NCBI GenBank assembly: GCA_031213475.1
Contig: JARUPZ010000014.1
Coordinates: forward strand, 1,860,001-1,924,000
Length of the DNA: 64,000 nucleotides
Source: Nereocystis luetkeana
Lineage: Eukaryota; Sar; Phaeophyceae; Laminariales; Laminariaceae
Reading direction: 5' to 3'
The notes beneath the pieces are model-generated. The model worked only from the letters and a program-made list of their open reading frames with translations, searched no databases and was not told the origin of the DNA. This document shows, one piece after another, positions 3,750 through 62,960 of the stretch. Each line of letters begins with the position of its first letter. Within the stretch, counting starts at the first letter, position 1. The position numbers and the translations under genes were made by a program.

Positions 3750-4344
3750 TGTGATATGATATGGTATCGGGCTTTAGGCGTGGTTATTAGATATCCCGCA
3801 GTATGAAAAGCCTAAATTCCTTGTGCATATTTCTGGGGCTCTAAAGTTTCCCTTGGTGAATAAGAATCAAAGCCCTGAAAACCCGAAGAGTATCCCTGGG
3901 GCTTTGAAGTTTACCTCGGTAGATAAGGCAGCCAGTACTATCAAAGGTTTTGTAAGGACTCGAGCAATGTTCCTAGGACAGACCTCCCTTAAAAACAAAA
4001 TAACCCGTAGAATTGGGAGTGAGTAGGCTATGGAAGTATCCTAGGGTTTGGCTACTCCTTTTGTTAGGATCATCGATAGAAGAGAAGAATAGACCAGCGT
4101 CCGAGGAAAGTTCCTCGGACAAGTGTATTTACCCGTCTAGCGGGTTAATGGAAAGGAAAAGAGTGGGCTTGCTACCTCGAATCAAGCCCCAACCGAATCA
4201 CTCTTGAACTGCTCCCTTTTTCTCATCACAACGGGGGATAACACGACAGTAGTCAAGAAATATGTCTCCTAAGCAAGAGAAGCTGCCTCCCGAGCCAGTT
4301 CCTGGATTCCACTTCCCTTACCTCTATCATCGGGTTCTACTACA
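3750..4344 (+). repeat. Right LTR-like repeat
   Basis: 595-bp partner of 2662-3187, longer because of an internal duplication of about 65 bp near 3835-3915. Confidence 0.55.
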
Positions 4345-4699
4345 GGACCGTGGCATACGCCTAACTTGGTCAAGCTTATTAGGCTACTACTGCGTTAGCT
4401 TGTTTGCTGTCTCCCAACAACAGTATTTCTTGATATCCCATTTCCTATCCAACGGCGGTGTGGGTGGGCGCAGAAACCTTCAACCTGTGGGGGAACGGGG
4501 TGTTAGTGTGTTAATATGCATCAACTGTCAGGTACGCTACTGTTGTAGAACCGAACGAAGAACGATGTACAATGATACGTTAATGCCTTCGATGTTCTTC
4601 GGCCTGCCCCGTTCATGGGGTGGACCGGGGAATTCCGCCAGGACCTGCAATGGTCTTGAGGGAACCTTGCGCGGTCTGGCTGGTGGTCTGCTTACTACT

Positions 4700-6560
4700 T
4701 TAAGGACCGCGTGGGGTGATATTTTTCTTCTTCACCCCGACGCCAAGGACTTCATCTCTGAAGCAGGGCGGGTACATCGCAATAGCAGAGAGCGCTACAT
4801 TGGCAGCCGGGGGAGTGGAGAGGCTGGACACAGAGTGGGTACGCATGCACGACAGGAAGGATGGGAGTGTCCGCGTTGGCTGGGACGGCTGCACCCAGTC
4901 AACGGAAACCAAGGCGCGTACCGGGCTACGAAGCGGAGAGCCACATTCGTCATAGAGACAAAAAATGAACCAATAGAAGCAAAATAAAATATGGGGGCGA
5001 ACCTCACGTCGATTGTCAAAGAAAGCAGTACGTGAGGCTCGAAAGAGAGAAGGAGGCACTTGAGGCGGTGGCGGCCTATAATGTGCGCACTCTGGCTTTA
5101 AAGGGGGAACACCGGTACGGACATGACGAGCGTGTACAGGCAAAGGGCCAGCAACTCGGCTGTAATTTCATTGTGGCCTGCAGTAACCTCGGAGGTCCGG
5201 CAGCACGACGTTCCGTGCGGCAGAGCATCACGTTTTCTGTTCAGGCCAGGAAGAAAACAGCTGCCAGGCAAGGGCTGTACGCGGTAGGTCTAGCTGTCAA
5301 GGAATCGTTGCCCTGGTATACATAGAGTATGTGTTCGCTCACTGGTTTATTGACGAGCGGCTTATGTCTCTAAGCTTTAAGCTGGCTGGTAAATGCGAGG
5401 GAGGTAAATTCGTTTGCGTATGCTCCAACTCATTGTACGCAGGACGACGAACTAAGACGTATTTTCTGGCACAACAAGCTGGAGGACTTGGTAGAACAGA
5501 TTTCAACGAAAAAGTGTTTGTTTATACTGATGGATGCTGACGCGCAAACTGGACAGATAACGGATTGGTGAGGTAATGAAGGAAGTAGAGTGCTTGGACC
5601 ATACACTTACGAACGTGACGTTCTTAACGATAATGGCAAACGACTTCTAGAATCGGTCATTCGCCACCAATTATTGCAAGTCAGCTCTCACCAACACGTT
5701 TTTCACTACACGCAAGGGGGGAATATCGCATACACACAACGGCCCCAGCCCGAATGACCGTAGGCAGGCTGACTACATCTCAAACCGTCAAGCCCATCGA
5801 CCCAGAGTACAGTATGTTAAAGTCGTCCCACAGCCTGCTCCCTCAGCTAAGGCCGACTCAGACCACAACATTTTGTATATCAGAGTCCGACTACAAAGTC
5901 GGCTGAAGGGCTCGCTGAAATGATGACAGTCATCGTGACAGCCTGTGAAGTACCAGGCGTCACGGTCTCGGAAGAGAAGACTAGAGACAATGCTGCTACG
6001 AACACTGGACCAGACAACCCTCGCGCCACCGCTCGTCGTCGAAGCAGCAGGCCAGAGGTATTAACAGACGACCCAATTATTTTATACCTAGACGGCATTA
6101 TTCACGAAAACGCTGACCTCTCGCTCGAAATAGATCGACGGATCCATCTCATGCGGGCATGCCTCAAACGCTTCGGCCCCGAGTTCTATGATAGGATGAC
6201 CGTCCCCCTTAGCCTGAAAGTCCGAATGCTGAAGGCCGAGGTGATTGAGGCCCTGCTGCACGGGTGTGTGACGTGGATCCTCAGAGCGGAACACTTTGCC
6301 AAGCTTCGAACGGCTCACCATCAAGTGCTCTTGCGAAGCATTATTAGCTTCCAGCGCCGACTCCGTTCCGACCACACCGCCCTCTCGTACGCGACTGCCC
6401 TCAACATGAATGACACGTTGCGTGAGAATCAAAACGATCATCCGTAAATGGCGGCTCATTTTTTGTGGGGGTCGTGGCACTGCAAAGCAAGGAGCGATTA
6501 CCCAGTCGGGTAATGTTCGGGACTATGGCCGGTGGGGAGAACTAAGACCTGGTGGATAGT
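4700..6560 (+). pseudogene. Non-LTR retrotransposon (LINE) relic
   Basis: Read across frameshifts, about 5075-5320 resembles the start of an exonuclease-endonuclease-phosphatase domain (YNVRTLAL, QLGCNFI, GLYAVGLAVKESL). About 5330-5530 gives FIDERLMSLSFKLAGK and a degraded DANARTG-like segment. About 5590-5890 gives VLND-type and THNGPSPNDRRQADYIS, then SDHN, the conserved C-terminal His-Asn motif of these endonucleases. About 6050-6440 matches the region after the reverse-transcriptase fingers and palm (DGIIHENADLSLEIDRRI, LKAEVIEALLHGCVTW, KLRTAHHQVLL). The palm with the YxDD box is missing between about 5930 and 6050, so the central RT is deleted. Stops and frame changes throughout make it inactive. 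Confidence 0.7.
5920..6447 (+). pseudogene. Longest remaining ORF of the LINE relic (RT distal region)
   Basis: 175-codon open frame. Its first 40 codons do not resemble the family. From about residue 45 it follows the post-palm region (DPIILYLDGIIHENADLS, RACLKRFGPEFYDR). The conserved reading frame is lost after about 6447, where the next frame still shows the RKWRLIF and MFGTMAGG-type tail of the element. Confidence 0.6.
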
Positions 6561-7599: not shown

Positions 7600-8405
7600 A
7601 GTTGTATTGCCTCACAGGCATTATCAGTTTTGTATGGCTAGGGGGAGAGTTGCGACCCCCTCTCACCCAGCACTTGCCCGTATGCTTCCATTCGTGACGG
7701 CGGGGATCAAGAGCAAGGAACCGAGACAGATTGGTATCCCCAACCCAGACAGTACGTGGCGCAGGGGTGCTTCCAGGCAACCTGGTAACCGGTAAGGGCC
7801 TCCAAAGGTTCCCAGAAAAAACAATTCGAGAAAAGAGACCAACAAACAAGTACGACACAAAACATGCCAGGTACTGCACCAGGTACCTGGTATACAACGA
7901 GGATCTTTAACAATCTTGGAGAAGGGATTTTTAGGTTGGTAGGTTGTTCAGGTGTTTTGGTTCCTGTTAGGATCGAGGTACGGGCGAAGACTCCAACCTA
8001 ACCCTAACCCTAACCCTCGTAAACAACAACTTCAACCGTAGTACATACGTAGTAATTGGTGGTGATGAGGCGCGACCTCAGTACCTGCAGAGGTCAGCTG
8101 AATCCACACGAACGAACATCTACGTACGTACGTACGCGATCGTACCTGGTGTGTACCTGTGCCCGTGACAAAATATTTTCTTGTATTCTTCTGTCTTTTG
8201 GGAACCTTTGGAAGCCCTTACCGGTTACCACAGGTTGCAAGGAAGCACCCCTGCGCCACATACAGTCTGGGTGGGGTGTTTCAATATGTCTCGTCTACTT
8301 CCGCTTGCTCCCCGCCGTCACGACTGGAAGCATACGGGTAAGTAAGTGCTGGGTGAGAGGGGATCCCAACTGTCACCCTAGCCTTACAAAGCTGATAACT
8401 CCCTG
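7600..8405. repeat. Long inverted repeat, arms of about 210 bp
   Basis: 7600-7812 and 8195-8405 are reverse complements at roughly 85-90 percent by eye. Shared blocks include CCTTACCGGTTACCA, GGAAGCACCCCTGCGCCAC, CCCCGCCGTCACGA and AGCATACGGG. The 380-bp loop carries a short CCTAACCC run (7997-8017) and two ACCAGGTA motifs. It could be a TIR element or a foldback; no gene lies inside. Confidence 0.65.
7997..8017 (+). repeat. Interstitial telomere-like CCCTAA run
   Basis: Three and a half CCCTAA units. Too short to mark a telomere; it lies in the loop of the 7600-8405 inverted repeat. Confidence 0.5.
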
Positions 8406-47815: not shown

Positions 47816-48544
47816 CTTTGTTAGTATGGTCCGTTTTGCCTTTTTTTTGCGTTTTGCTATCTGCGTCTGTTTTAGTTTTGTTTTTGTTTTTGTTTTGCTT
47901 AGCTTCATCTTCTTTTTTTTAGGTTTTTGTCTGCTATTAATATTAATAGTCTCCTTTTTGCTTCCCTGGTGTCCGCAGTGGTGGAGTGCGTACGCTTGTT
48001 TTTTGTTTTTTGCCTCTGTTTTTACTTGAGGTATTTCTTCCACTCCAGAGTTATTGGAGCCTGTCCTGCGACCACGGACTGGATTGAATTGTGAGTTAAT
48101 GTGAGAACAACAACAAACAACAAGATCACGTATGTCCTCTGGCTCAAAAATCAGGTGCGCAGGAGACCACGTAATGAAATTGAAAAAATGGTGTACGTGG
48201 TACAGATGTATGAAAAGTACGATCAATGATAAGATATTTGTTGTTGTTGTTCTCACATTAACTCACAATTCAATGCAGTCCGTGGTCGCAGGACAGGCTC
48301 CAATAACTCTGGAGTGGAAGAAATACCTCAAGTAAAAACAGAGGCAAAAAAAAAAAAAAAAAACAGGCATACGCACTCCACCACTGCGGACACCAGGGAA
48401 GCAAAAAGGAGACTATTAATAGCAGACAAAAACCTAAAAAAAGAAGCTGAAGCTAAGCAAAACAAAAACAAAAACAAAACTAAAACAGACGCAGATAGCA
48501 AAACGCGAAAAAAAGGCAAGGCAAAACGGACCATACTAACAAAG
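47816..48544. repeat. Long hairpin: inverted arms of about 310 bp
   Basis: 47816-48123 and 48233-48544 are reverse complements with few differences (arm-specific poly-A/T lengths and small indels), around a loop of about 110 bp. The outer part includes GTTAGTATGGTCCGTTTTGC; the inner part is the family Z end (CTCCAGAGTTATTGGAGCCT, GTCCTGCGACCACGGACTGG, GAGTTAATGTGAGAACAACA). No ORF beyond repeat artefacts. Confidence 0.8.
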
Positions 48545-53300: not shown

Positions 53301-53423
53301 TAGCAAGAACGCTTTACATGTTTAATCTGAAGGCAACGCTTGAACTACGCAAGCTCTGTGGTCACAAAACCACGGCATTTATTTTATTATATTTTTGTGG
53401 TTACGAAACCACGGCATTTTTAT

Positions 53424-53762
53424 TTATTATTTCGCTCATTCCATTTATTATCTTCGCATATCTTCTTCTCTCTCTCCTTCCAACTCGTAACTCAGATCCG
53501 GGGTCACATAGCAGGCTCTTCTCCCCCCTTCCCGCTACGGTACGTGCCTTCATTTTTATCGCGAGAAGATTTCAGCATTTTCTTCCCTCGTCGACTCGCA
53601 TCGAGTTGTGCCTACCCACGCTGCAAGGCGCTCTCAACAATTGAATCCTTTTTATTTTTATTTTTGCTAATAAAGTCAAATGTCCGACCCACCTGGGGCT
53701 CGAACCCAGGACTCAAACACAAGTAGAATTCGAGGTTAGCCACTTGAACCACCGGGGCGACC
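53424..53762 (-). mobile_element. tRNA-derived SINE, family A, copy 1
   Basis: On the minus strand it starts with GGTCGCCCCGGTGGTTCAAG (A box TGGTTCAAGTGG), then GAGTCCTGGGTTCGAGCCCC (B box GGTTCGAGCCC), then a body with GCCTTGCAGCGTGGGTAGGC and GAGTTACGAGTTGGAAGGAG, and an A/T-rich 3' end. Confidence 0.75.
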
Positions 53763-54390: not shown

Positions 54391-54398
54391 GTTATTTG
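54391..54398 (+). repeat. hAT target-site duplication, left
   Basis: GTTATTTG, identical to 60304-60311. Confidence 0.9.
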
Positions 54399-54429
54399 CA
54401 AGGCTTATCACGGTATTTTGGCGGGACGG

Positions 54430-54740
54430 TAACGGCGGTAACGGCGGGACGGGACGGGACGGTAAAACCGTCGTCAAACTGGTCCCGCCGTCCCGTCCCG
54501 TCATCAATTTCTGCCCCGTTGAACTTTACCGTCCCGTCCCGTCAAGAAAATCACTCCCGTTGAAAATAACCGTCCCGTCCCGTCGAGATACTTTCATTTA
54601 CCGTCCCGTCCCGTCATCCACCGTTGTCTTTACCGTCCCGTCCCGTCATGCACCGTTGTCTTTACCGTCCCGTCCCGTCATGCACCGTTGTCTTTACCGT
54701 CCCGTCCCGCCAACAAAACTTGCCCCTCCCGTCAAATATT
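54430..54740. repeat. hAT left subterminal repeats
   Basis: About eight CCGTCCCGTCCCGTC blocks are separated by short A/T-rich spacers such as ATCCACCGTTGTCTTTA. Likely transposase-binding arrays, by analogy with the subterminal motifs of Ac and Tam3. Confidence 0.75.
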
Positions 54741-56410
54741 CAAATATGCATCACCCCCTGCCCGTTGTTTCTTCACGTCCATTGCCACCAAGAAGTAATT
54801 CAGACTGTATGTACATTAAATTTAAATTGAAGTTACACGAATTTACGAAAAAATACAAAAATTTGAAATATTTACATGAAATAATGAAATAATGAAATTT
54901 TGGATTTACGAATTTACGAATGTGAAAAAAAGTTTCTTCACATTGAAATTCACTTTGTTTCCACACAGATCAAGCCTCGACGAGTAGCAGCAGACTTGGT
55001 ATGCACATTAAAGTTTAAATTGAAGTTATACGAATTTACGAAATACAAAAATAAAAAAATACTGGTATTTTATATGTAGAAATTAAAATAGAAAAAAGAA
55101 AAAATGAACATTTGGTATTATTAATTTTTTTTCGGTATGTATTTTTTTATTATTGATTATTTGCTTGAAGTTCATATCATATGATTTTCAGTGGCAACAC
55201 CTACCAGCCACCCGCTTGCACCCACACACAGCACAGCAACGGCAGCAGTATAGTACCGCCGTGGCCGGCACCGCGCCATGAATGCGTATTTCACGATCGC
55301 GGCTGAGCAACCAGCACCGGCACCAGCATCACCACGGCCACCGCCACCGCCCCCACCACCACCAACCAACACAACCACGACAGCCACCAGCACGCCAGCG
55401 CAAGCACAGCCACCAGAAGAGCTACCAGCTGGCACGGCAACCGTTCTTGGGGCAGGGGTGGGGAGGCTTCAGAAGACGTCGCCCGTGTGGCAACACTTCT
55501 CGGAGTTCGACCCGCCGGTCGGGAAAAAAAACGTCAAGTGCACGGTGGTCACAAAGTTGCCTGCCTCGGGGCTGCTTGGCGCGCGCAGCGAGCGGTGCGG
55601 GAAGCTTTTCACGTACACTCGCGCGGAAAATGGAAAGAAAAGCTCCGGAACAAGCGGCCTGCTCAGCCACCTGAAAGAGTGCCACCCCGCCGAGGGTAAG
55701 GCGGCGGTCGAGGCAAGCCGTTCATCCACATGCACCAGGGAGAAGCGTGGTGAAGCCTTGTCAGGTGAGCGATTGTGTGCTGCACATGGTGGTATCTGTG
55801 GGAGGTTAGATACAGCAGCAGTATAATGTCAACTCCTGTGCTGCTGAATTTCGAAACTGGAATTTCGATAAGAGTTGTTTTTGTCTGTAAACTATCAATA
55901 TTAATTATTTATAGACAGACTACCAGAGGTATGTACCAGGGTATATATATAATATATACTGATAGGAGTACATGGTATATATACTGGTGTAGCAGTACCT
56001 CGTGGTTTCCCGATAGACTAACGCAGGATTTACGTACGAGGTACGTGGTGTGTGTGTGTGTGTGTTCTTCACAAACTGCTGTCATCCCCGTGCTGCTGCT
56101 GTCTTGCATTGAAAAATGAAAAATGAAAAAATGATCCGCTCTCGATGTTCCAGTCCTCGGCGTATGATCATTGACTATGTTCCCTGTCCCGTTTTCCGTA
56201 CTCGTACGTACTGCTCCTGCTGCTGCTTGTGTTGTTTTGTGTGGTGTGCAGGCCAGGGCAAAGATGGCGTAGATTCGAAGGTCCGCATCATCGAGGGACA
56301 CATGCACCGCGCAATGACGAAGAAGCAGCGGGAAGAGCAAGATCGCCGCTATGTCATCCTGTGCGCCTCCGAGATGCGACCTTTCTCCATGTCGTCCGGA
56401 GCTGCGTTTC

Positions 56411-57225
56411 GGTACTTCGTCGGGGGGCTTTCTCCATCTTACGTCTCCCAGACCATCCATCAAACAACCATCGATCGCCACCTGGGTACCCTGTTCAAGG
56501 AAGTGAAGGCCTCTATCACCGTAAAGCTCCAGGAGCACGTCAAATCCGTCAGGAAGATGGGCTGGTATGGCCCCTGCGTCAGAGCGCAGGTGGATCTGAC
56601 AACTGCGAACAACGTCGAGTACGCCACGATGTCCCTTTCTTGGATCCCGCAGGATTGGTCTGAAATGGAGCGAGTGACGGTGTGCACGAAGGCCTTTCCA
56701 GGGAGGCACACGCAAGAGGAGGTGGAACCCTGGCTCCGCAAGGTCAGGTTTACGCGAGGTTTACGCCTGACCTTGCGGAGCCAGGGTTCCACCTCCTCTT
56801 GCGTGTGCCTCCCTGGAAAGGCCTTCGTGCACACCGTCACTCGCTCCATTTCAGACCAATCCTGCGGGATCCAAGAAAGATTTACGCCTGACCTTGCGGA
56901 GCCAGGGTTCCACCTCCTCTTGCGTGTGCCTCCCTGGAAAGGCCTTCGTGCACACCGTCACTCGCTCCATTTCAGACCAATCCTGCGGGATCCAAGAAAG
57001 GGACATCGTGGCGTACTCGACGTTGTTCGCAGTTGTCAGATCCACCTGCGCACTGACGCAGGGGCCATACCAGCCCATCTTCCTAACGGATTTGACGTGC
57101 TCCTGGAGCTTTACGGTGATAGAGGCCTTCACTTCCTTGAACAGGGTACCCAGGTGGCGATCGATGGTTGTTTGATGGATGGTCTGGGAGACGTAAGATG
57201 GAGAAAGCCCCCCGACGAAGTACCG
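56411..57225. repeat. Inverted duplication of transposase exon 2
   Basis: 56411-56750 is followed by its reverse complement. A 121-bp inverted segment occurs twice in tandem (56760-56880 and 56881-57001), and the second copy continues to about 57225. Minus-strand frames therefore repeat the exon 2 protein. The two arms differ at only a few bases (for example GTCAGAGCGCAGG versus GTCAGTGCGCAGG), so the event is recent. Confidence 0.9.
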
Positions 57226-57276
57226 AGGCTGCTGCTGCTTTCTTTTTTCTATTTTGAGCTACTATTAGTACCGTGA

Positions 57277-57293
57277 TACCGTGATAAGCCTTG
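57277..57293 (+). repeat. Internal copy of the hAT right terminus
   Basis: TACCGTGATAAGCCTTG, identical to the element's right TIR, lies inside the element just after the inverted duplication. It is not followed by GTTATTTG. Confidence 0.8.
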
Positions 57294-57767
57294 TTTTGTT
57301 TTGTGTTGTTGTTTTTTTTTTTTTCTCTTCCGTTGCTTCCCCTGCGGGCGAATGTACGAATTAGCCGCCATGGTCGGCCACTTCAGTCACTCCGCGGTCA
57401 ACAACGACGCCTTCAAGGCCGTACAACGCGAAGTCCAAGAGCTAGCTGCAGTCTTGGAGCTGATTCGTCGCAACGACACGAGGTACGGCGCGGCGAGGGG
57501 GTCAAATCCTAGATATGGCAGGTATCATACAGATAGATTTTTGTTTTTTGTTTTTTGTGCTTTCTCCTTTTTCTTCCCTTTTTCCTTTGGATTGATTTCA
57601 TATTTCATTTTCTCATCTCTCGGCTGCGGTGTACGACACAGGAAGCTAATGCAAAAATGTACCAGGTATTTTGAACGTACACATTTACAGCAGTATTAAA
57701 TTCCTTTCGCCGGGACAGTATTTCTGAGTTGTTGGAGCCGTCCTGTGACCACGGACTGGAAATCTCG

Positions 57768-57773
<6 letters not shown>

Positions 57774-57798
<25 letters not shown>

Positions 57799-58113
57799 CC
57801 ATCCCATTCATTATCTTCGCACATCTTATTCTCTCTCCTTCCAACTCGTAACTCAGATCCGGGGTCACATAGCAGGCTCTTCTCCCCCCTTCCCGCTACG
57901 GTACGTGCCTTCATTTTTATCGCGAGAAGATTTCAGCCTTTTCTTCCCTCGTCGACTCGCATCGAATTGTGCCTACCCACGCTGCAAGGCGCTCTCAACA
58001 ATTGAATCCCTTTTTTTATTTTTGCAAATAAAGTCAAAGTCCGACCCTCCTAGGGCTCGAACCCAGGACTCAAACAAGTAGAATTCGAGGTTAACCACTT
58101 GAACCACCGGGGC
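57774..58113 (-). mobile_element. SINE-A copy 2, inside the transposase intron
   Basis: Full tRNA-like head at the right (TTGAACCACCGGGGC reversed) and a long poly-A tail (about 24 T on the plus strand) at the left. Inserted antisense in the 57483-58374 intron, so it is younger than the hAT copy. Confidence 0.8.
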
Positions 58114-58923
58114 ATGAGTTAATGTGATGACAACAGCAATAACAAGTATTTCTGTTTATTGTGTGTCAGATTAGGTGTCCTGTACTGCTGTATATTCGTA
58201 TATCCTCGCTCAGAACTGGTCTGGCATTGTTTCATACCTGGTACACTGCTTGGTGGATATATTCTCCGTATAAGCACGGCGAGTAACCCCCCTCCCCTTG
58301 TCCCGCCGCTCGTCCCGCCCCTTTTCGCTTTGTTTCCGTCCGTTGTTGCAAATTTTCAAAATTTATTGTTTTAGGTGGGGGTCGCAGCACGCGATGATGT
58401 CGCGCGTGCTCAGGCTCTACCGGTGTCTCACAGCATACTTCACGCAGAACCTGACCGTCCGCGCTCTGTACCCGTTGGAATGGCAAGCGGCGCTGGAGGT
58501 GACGAGCATCCTCGACCCCGCCGCCATGGTCAATACTCAGATCCAAGGGGGACGGCACGCCTTCGTAGGCAAGGCGATCAACGACTTCACCATGCTGTAC
58601 GAGTCGTTCGCCTTTGACACGCAGGACATCCGCACGCTGGACCCGCCGGACGGCCCGCTGAGCCCCGTCGCGACGGGCAGCCTCGTTCCGGAGGTGAAGA
58701 CAATGCTGAAGATCCTACTCGCGGACATGAACACCAGGAAGTTGGGTCATGCAACGCTGGAGGCAGAAATGATGAGCTTGGTGCTGGACCCTCGCTACAA
58801 AACCTGCTGCGAGGGGGTGTGCCGGAACGGGGGCGACGCCCTTAAGAAAAGCGTCAGCGAGGAAGTGACGAGTCAACTATCCTACTTCGTGGGACATGCC
58901 GAACCAGCCGCGGACGGAGGCGC

Positions 58924-58990
58924 TGGGTCAGGCGGTCCGCCGGGCGCCGGGGCAGGCAGTCCGCCGGGCGCCGGGGCAGGCGGTTCCGAG
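58924..58990 (+). repeat. In-frame GC-rich tandem in transposase exon 4
   Basis: AGTCCGCCGGGCGCCGGGGC-type 27-bp units, encoding GGPPGAGAG / SPPGAGAG. Confidence 0.65.
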
Positions 58991-59869
58991 GGTACCGGAG
59001 CAGGGCTACCAGGGCCGGGCGACGCAGGAGCGGCGGGCTCCGGGGCAGGGGGGGCGCCCCCTCCGCCCGCGATAAGTAGGTTGGAAAGGTTGAGGCTTGC
59101 GCGAAACATTGTACCGCAGTGCAGCAACGAGGATGGAACGGAGTCTCGTGCGGATGCCGCCCTGCGCGAGTTCGGCGAGTACATGAAAACGCCCGTTGCA
59201 GCCAATTCGCCTGACTTCGATGTACTCAACGCGTGGAAGGCACAGGCGATGGGTGGAGTAGACGCCAAGACGGGGGAGGTGGTAGTGCCGGCTCGCTGAC
59301 CCCATGTCGGACTGTTGGCTCGACTGTACCTGGGGATCGACACCACCAGTTGTCAAGCAGAAAGGAACTTCTCTGCTCTTTCGGCAGTTGTTAGCCAACT
59401 GCGCACCTCGCTCGGGGCTGACAAAATCGAGAAGATGATGCTGCTTAAGCTCAACTCGCACTTGATCCCCGGGCTAGCGGAGGTTCTCCAAGATGTAGCG
59501 GCGTTGAAGGCCAACTGCGACGCGGAGGCTGCCGCATCAGTCGCTGCCCAAAACGCTGCGGCTGGCGAGATTATTTCTGTAGACAGAGCATGATGAGATT
59601 TTCTCTGTACTTTAATGTAAAATACGAGTTCGTAGCGTAATTTGAGATTTGCAGTATGGGGATACGAGCTTCAAGATGAATTTTGATTTACGTACAACTC
59701 GCACGAGTGTTTTTTTTCGTTTGTTCCTCTGGAGCAACAGTTTTGGTCCAATGATCCAATGCCGCCCGCACTACTGCTGTTACTACTACTATAGTACCTG
59801 GTACTACGGTGTTTAGTACCAGGCATATTGTATACAACTCACATTTGGGACAGGAAAAATCGGTTCCAT

Positions 59870-60275
59870 GGTACGTCCGTCCCGTCCTATAGTGAAAAAT
59901 TGTTTTTCCGTCCCGTCCCGTCGTGAATAATGCATTCACCGTCCCGTCGTGAAAAAAAAAATACCGTCCCGTCCCGCCGTGAAGAAAATATTTACCGTCC
60001 CGTCCCGTCGCGAGAAATAGTTTTACCGTCCCGTCCCGCCGTGAAAATTTTTATTTACCGTCCCGTCCCGCCGTGAAAAAATATATTTACCGTCCCGTCC
60101 CGTCGTGGGAAAAACTGCCGTTGACTTTTACCGTCCCGTCCCGTCGTGAAAATCTACCCCGTTGAAATTAACCGTCCCGTCCCGTTGAGAAATTGTACAC
60201 CCATTTTACCGTCCCGTCCCGTCTTGATTTTTTTTTCCGCCAAACAAGTGAAAACAGTCCCGTCCCGTCCCGTCT
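59870..60275. repeat. hAT right subterminal repeats
   Basis: About eleven CCGTCCCGTCCCG(T/C)C blocks with GTGAAAA-rich spacers at roughly 30-35-bp spacing, in the same orientation as the left block. Confidence 0.75.
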
Positions 60276-60303
60276 CGATTATCAAGTACCGTGATAAGCC
60301 TTG

Positions 60304-60311
60304 GTTATTTG
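60304..60311 (+). repeat. hAT target-site duplication, right
   Basis: GTTATTTG, identical to 54391-54398. Confidence 0.9.
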
Positions 60312-60836: not shown

Positions 60837-61036
60837 TACTGAGAACAGGCGTTCCGATGCGGGGAACGATGCTTGCACAGCGAGATACTTGCGGGCAACT
60901 TGGCGACGATCGGAAACGTGTTTTGCTCCCCTGCCCGCCACCTAGAGGGGCCGCCGAGGATCTTCACACGGTTGGAACCGACCTGCTTCTGATTCCGGTA
61001 AAGGGACAATTCGTTCATGATAGCGTCCTTCGCCAA

Positions 61037-61327
61037 AAAAACGGCCATAGTCTTACGCGCGCCATGTGGGGGGGGGGCAGGGTGTCTACGCCTACAGGTG
61101 CTTGTGCATCCCAATGTCTTGTGCATCATAAAGTCTGGCTTGTTTCCCTTTCCGCCTAAAATAGATGCGTGAGCTCCCGAGCTTCACCAAAAGAATGGCC
61201 ATAGTCTTACACGCGGGGGGGGGGGGGGGGGGCGCAGGGTGTCTACGCCTACAGGTGCTTGTGCATCCTAATGTCTTGTGCATCATAATGTCTGGCTTGT
61301 TTCCCTTTCCTCATAAAATAGATGCGT
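61037..61327. repeat. 155-bp tandem duplication
   Basis: GGCCATAGTCTTACGCGCG...G-run...GGGTGTCTACGCCTACAGGT, then AATAGATGCGTGA, is repeated starting near 61193 with a longer G run (about 18). Confidence 0.75.
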
Positions 61328-61329
61328 GA

Positions 61330-62612: not shown

Positions 62613-62960
62613 TATTTATTTATTTATTTTTTTGCTCATCCCATTCATTATCTTCGCACATCTTCTTGCTTCTCTCTCTCCTTCCAACTCGTAACTCAGA
62701 TCCGGGGTCACATAGCAGGCTCTTCTCCCCCCTTCCCGCTACGGTACGTGCCTTCATTTTTTATCGCGAGAAGATTTCAGCCTTTTTCTTCCCTCGTCGA
62801 CTCGCATCGAATTGTGCCTACCCACGCTGCAAGGCGCTCTCAACAATTGAATCCTTTTTTATTTTTGCAAATAAAGTCAAAGTCCGACCCACCTGGGGCT
62901 CGAACCCAGGACTCAAACAAGTAGAATTCGAGGTTGACCACTTGAACCACCGGGGCGACC
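62613..62960 (-). mobile_element. SINE-A copy 3, full length
   Basis: The minus strand starts GGTCGCCCCGGTGGTTCAAG and ends in GGGATGAGCAAAAAAATAAA-type tail. Best match to copy 2. Confidence 0.8.

Follow-up and report, generated by a model that had tools for sequence, protein, structure and literature searches.

The window analysed here is a 64,000-nt stretch of the brown alga Nereocystis luetkeana (assembly GCA_031213475.1, contig JARUPZ010000014.1, positions 1,860,001 to 1,924,000, forward strand). It contains a hAT-type element, referred to here as copy W, with exons 1 to 4 of a transposase gene between terminal inverted repeats (TIRs) and a target site duplication (TSD), and with an inverted duplication of exon 2 sequence in its second intron (Table 1).

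Table 1. Features of copy W and its flanks (positions within the window)
Feature	Position	Strand	Remarks
TSD, left copy	54391..54398		GTTATTTG
hAT-type element (copy W)	54399..60303	+	Exact TIRs, 8-bp TSD, BED zinc finger, hAT dimerisation domain
Left TIR, 17 bp	54399..54415	+	Exact
Exon 1 (BED zinc finger)	55278..55764	+	Open frame; start and splice donor inferred by eye
Exon 2	56252..56741	+	Frame; by-eye acceptor; donor position conserved in L010 and L011
Forward arm	56409..56748	+	Final 333 bp of exon 2 and 7 bp of intron
GT of exon 2 splice donor	56742..56743	+
121-bp tandem duplication across fold-back end	56757..56998		Also given as 56760-57000
Second, partial inverted copy	56766..56879	-	114 nt, identical to 56635-56748 (100%)
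Inverted arm	56887..57226	-	338/340 identical to forward arm; in intron 2
Extra 17-bp TIR copy in intron 2	57277..57293	-	Exact; right-end orientation
Deletion junction	57362..57363		~854 bp present in L011 missing; placed by alignment ends
Remaining 3' part of exon 3	57363..57521	+	End inferred from donor, by eye
SINE-like repeat	57774..58113	-	In exon 3 - exon 4 intron; not there in L010, L011
Exon 4	58375..59593	+	Frame open to premature stop; acceptor-like AG ends at 58374
Premature in-frame stop	59297..59299	+	Without counterpart in three other close copies
Right TIR, 17 bp	60287..60303	-	Exact
TSD, right copy	60304..60311		GTTATTTG

Results

A hAT element with intact ends

The 8-bp TSD, short TIRs, BED zinc finger and C-terminal dimerisation domain of copy W place it among hAT elements, as a sequence-only reading of this DNA had proposed, and its ends are as intact as that reading had described them. 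In Pfam, zf-BED (PF02892) matched 55278-55763 (E 8.4e-6) and the hAT dimerisation domain (PF05699) matched 59300-59590 (E 4.7e-6), both above the cut-off. A TSD of the same length, AAAAAAAG, flanks a second copy of the family, L010; in a third, L011, a TSD was looked for and none was seen. Exon 2 encodes VDLTT, which we take to contain the first catalytic Asp, and a second Asp with a C..H stretch could be read by eye in L011 in sequence that is deleted from copy W. Exons 2 and 4 gave no useful Pfam or PDB sequence match for DDE catalytic residues: against PDB sequences exon 2 had no matches, and exon 4 had 13, with a best E of 0.11 and no transposase by name. Arrays of a subterminal CCGTCCCGTC unit lie at both ends of the element (54488-54733 and 59877-60236) and are perhaps transposase-binding repeats.

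An inverted duplication spans exon 2 and intron 2

The two arms of the duplication are separated by 138 nt and differ at two sites, 56550 and 56583. The sequence-only reading had exon 2 followed directly by its reverse complement, partly twice, from 56411. The duplication and its partial second copy stand, with the forward arm beginning at 56409 and comprising the last part of exon 2 and a few intron bases; this start is ambiguous by one base, which is shared with the first base of the resumed intron. The units of the tandem duplication, 56757-56877 and 56878-56998, differ once. As that reading had anticipated, the element carries a self-derived inverted duplication with the potential to form a long hairpin: the predicted RNA fold of 56400-57240 has an energy of -811 kcal/mol, against a mean of -307 for shuffled sequences (s.d. 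6.6, n = 20 shuffles), a stability far beyond chance.

Read by eye, the joints share few bases. At the forward-to-reverse joint, where copy W turns back on reaching TTTACGCCTG (56760-56769), CTG is shared; at the second joint, 56877/56878, 0-1 bp is shared; and at the third, where the reverse copy ends at 56409 and the intron resumes, a single A is shared and about 16 bp of intron are lost. We rejected as coding a 386-aa frame through the inverted arm, since the antisense frame at 55909-56715 overlies the native exon too.

The inversion is private to copy W among the copies found

We searched the genome (465,085,209 bases in 1987 contigs) by scoring the best candidates, so that all locus counts are lower bounds. 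An exon 2 probe found three loci, namely copy W, L010 (contig C8) and L011 (C17), and an exon 4 probe found four close loci (the same three and L027, on C19) together with L028 at 83% identity. The right-end pattern, at up to 3 mismatches, occurred at six places: the four close loci matched it perfectly and two others had 3 mismatches. An intron 2 probe returned three loci, all already known. Of the 12 matches from a protein search with exon 2, eight lay in the three loci and four elsewhere, at 29-39% identity. L028 is a distant relative (4031-5722 of its stretch, 81-83% in two pieces), in which family pieces occur in both orientations, with a 124-nt inverted pair at 81%; it is possibly another rearranged copy. 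In viral contigs, two protein scans found no relative (the one gave 14 pattern stretches, none confirmed, and the other none), and the TIR 17-mer had 4 exact matches, by our estimate about the chance expectation for a collection of that size.

L010 and L011 match the forward arm at 97-98%, and in both exon 2 runs into the same intron without an inversion. Their exon ends at a GT donor (CAAG/GTCAGT), and 34 bases past GTCAG comes the intron sequence that in copy W resumes at 57226. In copy W the donor reads CAAG/GTCAGG and the short stretch after it is slightly altered. The inversion is thus private to copy W among the copies found, being present in 1 of 3 exon 2 loci, and has not spread. Because the donor at 56741/56742 is kept in the two relatives, the inverted arm lies in intron 2, a placement that the earlier reading, with its exon-centred hairpin, did not have.

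The extra TIR in intron 2 also occurs in L010 (exact) and L011 (one mismatch) and is therefore older than the inversion. Inverted TIRs thus also delimit the segment 54399-57293. With the intron 2 probe, no short copy standing by itself turned up in the alga's own genome.

All close copies found are damaged

In L011, the stretch deleted from copy W runs from late intron 2 into early exon 3 and contains VDQG...N and C..H, read by eye as the putative region of the second catalytic Asp in hAT transposases. We considered a replacement of this Asp-bearing exon by the inversion and rejected it, as L010 and L011 show the two changes to be separate. These two copies have a common 4-bp insertion in exon 2 that breaks the frame, so that their exon 2 matches fall in separate frames; L011 carries another 4-bp insertion in that exon and has lost 8 bp from exon 4. 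L027 starts within part of intron 2, has a 4-bp insertion in exon 4 and, relative to L010, is missing about 0.8 kb between exons 3 and 4. The comparison covered exons 1, 2 and 4 and the 3' part of exon 3. The search for intact relatives that had been suggested thus ended in four close places, each with damaged exons; this statement rests on one assembly and on searches scoring best candidates only.

Age of the duplication

The arms diverge by 2/340, or 0.59% (exact 95% interval 0.07-2.1%), and the copies diverge from one another by 0.49-1.06% in the segments measured. Over four segments, copy W differed from L010 by 16/1601, 2/339, 2/411 and 11/1747 substitutions and from L011 by 17/1601, 2/339, 4/411 and 16/1742, and from L027, in the one segment present, by 10/1344. 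At 56550 it is the inverted arm that has changed, and at 56583 both arms are unlike the relatives. The arms are indeed near-identical, but the reading of the duplication as recent holds only loosely: because arm divergence lies within the copy-to-copy spread, there is no measurable sign that the duplication is younger than the divergence of the copies.

Other inverted and dispersed repeats

As controls, we scanned for inverted repeats with one seed and one distance limit throughout and a minimum arm of 60 nt (40 nt in the window). In six 10-kb stretches taken at random from this genome, no inverted pair reached 90%; one stretch had a 340-nt pair at 83%, its halves 2.5 kb apart, and the other five had none. 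The L010 and L011 stretches had no inverted pairs at the 60-nt minimum, the L027 stretch had two palindromic pairs at 72-73%, and the L028 stretch had four inverted pairs of 64-124 nt at 78-92%. The window itself had 17 at its lower minimum. The exon 2 structure, given its length and identity, is rare, but it is not the only fold-back in the window. A second near-perfect fold-back at 47836-48519 (nested pairs of 92, 71 and 121 nt at 95-98%) is probably a MITE or fold-back element, and an older one at 7621-8398 has pairs of 113, 55 and 42 nt at 84-89% around one common centre.

A dispersed repeat of ~340 bp occurs at 57774-58113, 53417-53758 and 62615-62956 (93-94% identity), with a poly-T end and, by eye, a tRNA-like stretch; it is probably a SINE. 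In L010 a copy is found elsewhere, within intron 2. A 157-bp tandem repeat with long G runs is present in two copies at 61028-61329. The window had no Rfam matches and no tRNAs, and 10 of its 24 ORFs of 150 aa or more, searched against Pfam at E 0.01, gave no matches. An Rfam scan of L040 had no matches.

Discussion

Origin of the fold-back

We consider copy W to be a dead, internally rearranged member of a small hAT family, its fold-back a repair accident joined by microhomology, with a probability of about 0.82; an ordinary cause of the fold-back is most likely. During repair or replication of the element, synthesis would have continued for ~28 bp past the donor of exon 2 and then changed strands, copying 340 bp of exon 2 backwards. 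A 121-bp restart during this backward copying would have left the tandem repeat, and synthesis would then have switched back to the downstream intron, losing the bases missing at the third joint. The ~854-bp loss, with the presumed second catalytic residue, and the gain of the stop codon would have been separate events. With its ends retained, the element could presumably move only if transposase were supplied from elsewhere, and its hairpin potential would be a by-product.

Joints with so little homology are the pattern of strand-switching synthesis, a general mechanism (compare PMC2621351). We infer that gap repair after excision may have been the setting of the switch. Ds-type derivatives, internally deleted or rearranged, form by interrupted gap repair, and copy W resembles them in its intact ends, damaged interior and short microhomology and filler at the joints. 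It differs from them in combining a fold-back, extra tandem copy included, with a large deletion that is separate from it. Two points speak against this reading of copy W: with 2 changes in 340 the fold-back is near-perfect, which fits a young or maintained locus too, and at least part of an RNA-interference gene set is present in the genome.

Both points bear on the possibility, raised by the sequence-only reading, that the locus silences its own family. Such a locus would give rise to unspliced RNA, started at the promoter of the element itself or in a flank, that folds into a 340-bp duplex, is diced and loaded into Argonaute and silences family members, as has been proposed for Mu killer and reported for the Tam3 locus NSt. 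Copy W has the inverted duplication of a hairpin-RNA silencer of the Mu killer or NSt kind, with near-perfect arms and a very stable fold, and its relatives match the arm closely enough that small RNAs could be expected to target them. Domain matches point to host RNA-interference genes: Piwi-domain matches in one place, in five pieces within 5.4 kb (C2:13350796-13356173), three of the five interrupted by a stop, as can occur where a match crosses introns; 11 RdRP matches, grouped into two clusters on C10; and a single partial match to RNase III (55/102 positions). A hairpin might therefore be processed, if transcribed. The authentic intron 2 acceptor is lost in copy W, which could favour unspliced RNA; between 57227 and 58400 there are seven acceptor-like AGs at 70% pyrimidine or more. 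Against all this, the inverted arm is situated past the splice donor of exon 2, so that a transcript spliced at 56741 would be without the hairpin, the inversion has remained at a single exon 2 locus, and a repressed active relative is not in evidence, with undamaged exons at none of the four close places in our lower-bound search. We therefore regard silencing by this locus as unlikely, and the earlier suggestion of it is not borne out. It is quite unlikely, too, that small RNAs from a coding-exon hairpin helped to shut down the element's own family, in a genome with an apparently single Argonaute, and that the damaged copies are the aftermath.

Two further explanations were considered. Some library types are known to yield palindromic joins as artefacts, and an assembly error or chimeric read could in principle have produced this one. 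We find this very unlikely, as the arms differ at 2 sites, the join carries a 121-bp tandem, normal intron resumes after a short deletion, and the sizes of ten contigs other than C14 (10.8 to 21.9 Mb) suggest long reads. The exact TIR that lies ~50 bp beyond the inverted arm, in fitting orientation, might instead be one end of a shorter hAT copy inserted in reverse. That origin is extremely unlikely, and we rejected it in substance: the internal TIR and its surroundings are present in L010 and L011, both without the inversion, the window has only three TIR copies at up to 3 mismatches and no second inner one, the forward and reverse copies stop within ~20 bp of each other, and the intron 2 probe gave only the three known loci.

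Comparison with known silencing loci

The analogy with Mu killer of maize that had been drawn for this locus is a fair comparison, but the New Stabiliser (NSt) of Antirrhinum, formed from the hAT element Tam3, is closer. Copy W shares with NSt a transposon-derived inverted arrangement that could be transcribed into a hairpin. In copy W the inverted sequence is 340 bp long, mostly coding, and part of a single element. NSt consists of two inverted Tam3 elements, set head to head within an intron of the host, and is reported to be transcribed into a hairpin yielding mainly 21-22-nt RNAs and to suppress Tam3; the small RNAs match the 5' terminal region with its transposase-binding motifs (commentary, PMC12449043). 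The Tam3 Old Stabiliser, OSt, is a rearranged pseudo-Tam3 and, like copy W, a non-functional element, but differs in the bidirectional transcription of its rearranged 5' end, which gives mainly 24-nt RNAs (PMC12449043).

Mu killer, according to the part of PMC3440606 drawn on here, is a partial inverted duplication of mudrA, of about 1.3 kb, and resembles copy W in being a partial inverted duplication of a transposase gene within a deleted element. It belongs to the Mutator superfamily, has two copies of the TIRA region and has been shown genetically to silence MuDR (same part of PMC3440606), whereas copy W is a hAT element with 340-bp arms that hold no TIR, and is described here from its sequence. 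The read-through hairpin model of Mu killer is itself partly disputed: as that part of PMC3440606 has it, silencing individuals express short antisense transcripts unable to form large hairpins; a new model is proposed there, and the paper allows that minor longer transcripts may act via a hairpin.

With Tam3 counted as a hAT element, hairpin repressors from hAT transposons are already in print (PMC12449043). A hairpin locus made from an inverted coding exon inside one hAT element was not among the open-literature titles and abstract beginnings listed. Copy W is a clear example of how defective DNA transposons gain inverted pieces of themselves. In Ectocarpus, according to the part of PMC12477816 drawn on here, little is known of how transposons are controlled, cytosines are not methylated and only one Argonaute is present. 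The confinement of the Piwi-domain matches to one place is consistent with a brown-alga genome (PMC12867755). If small RNAs are made from copy W, it would extend the transposon-derived hairpin repressors of snapdragon (PMC12449043) beyond plants.
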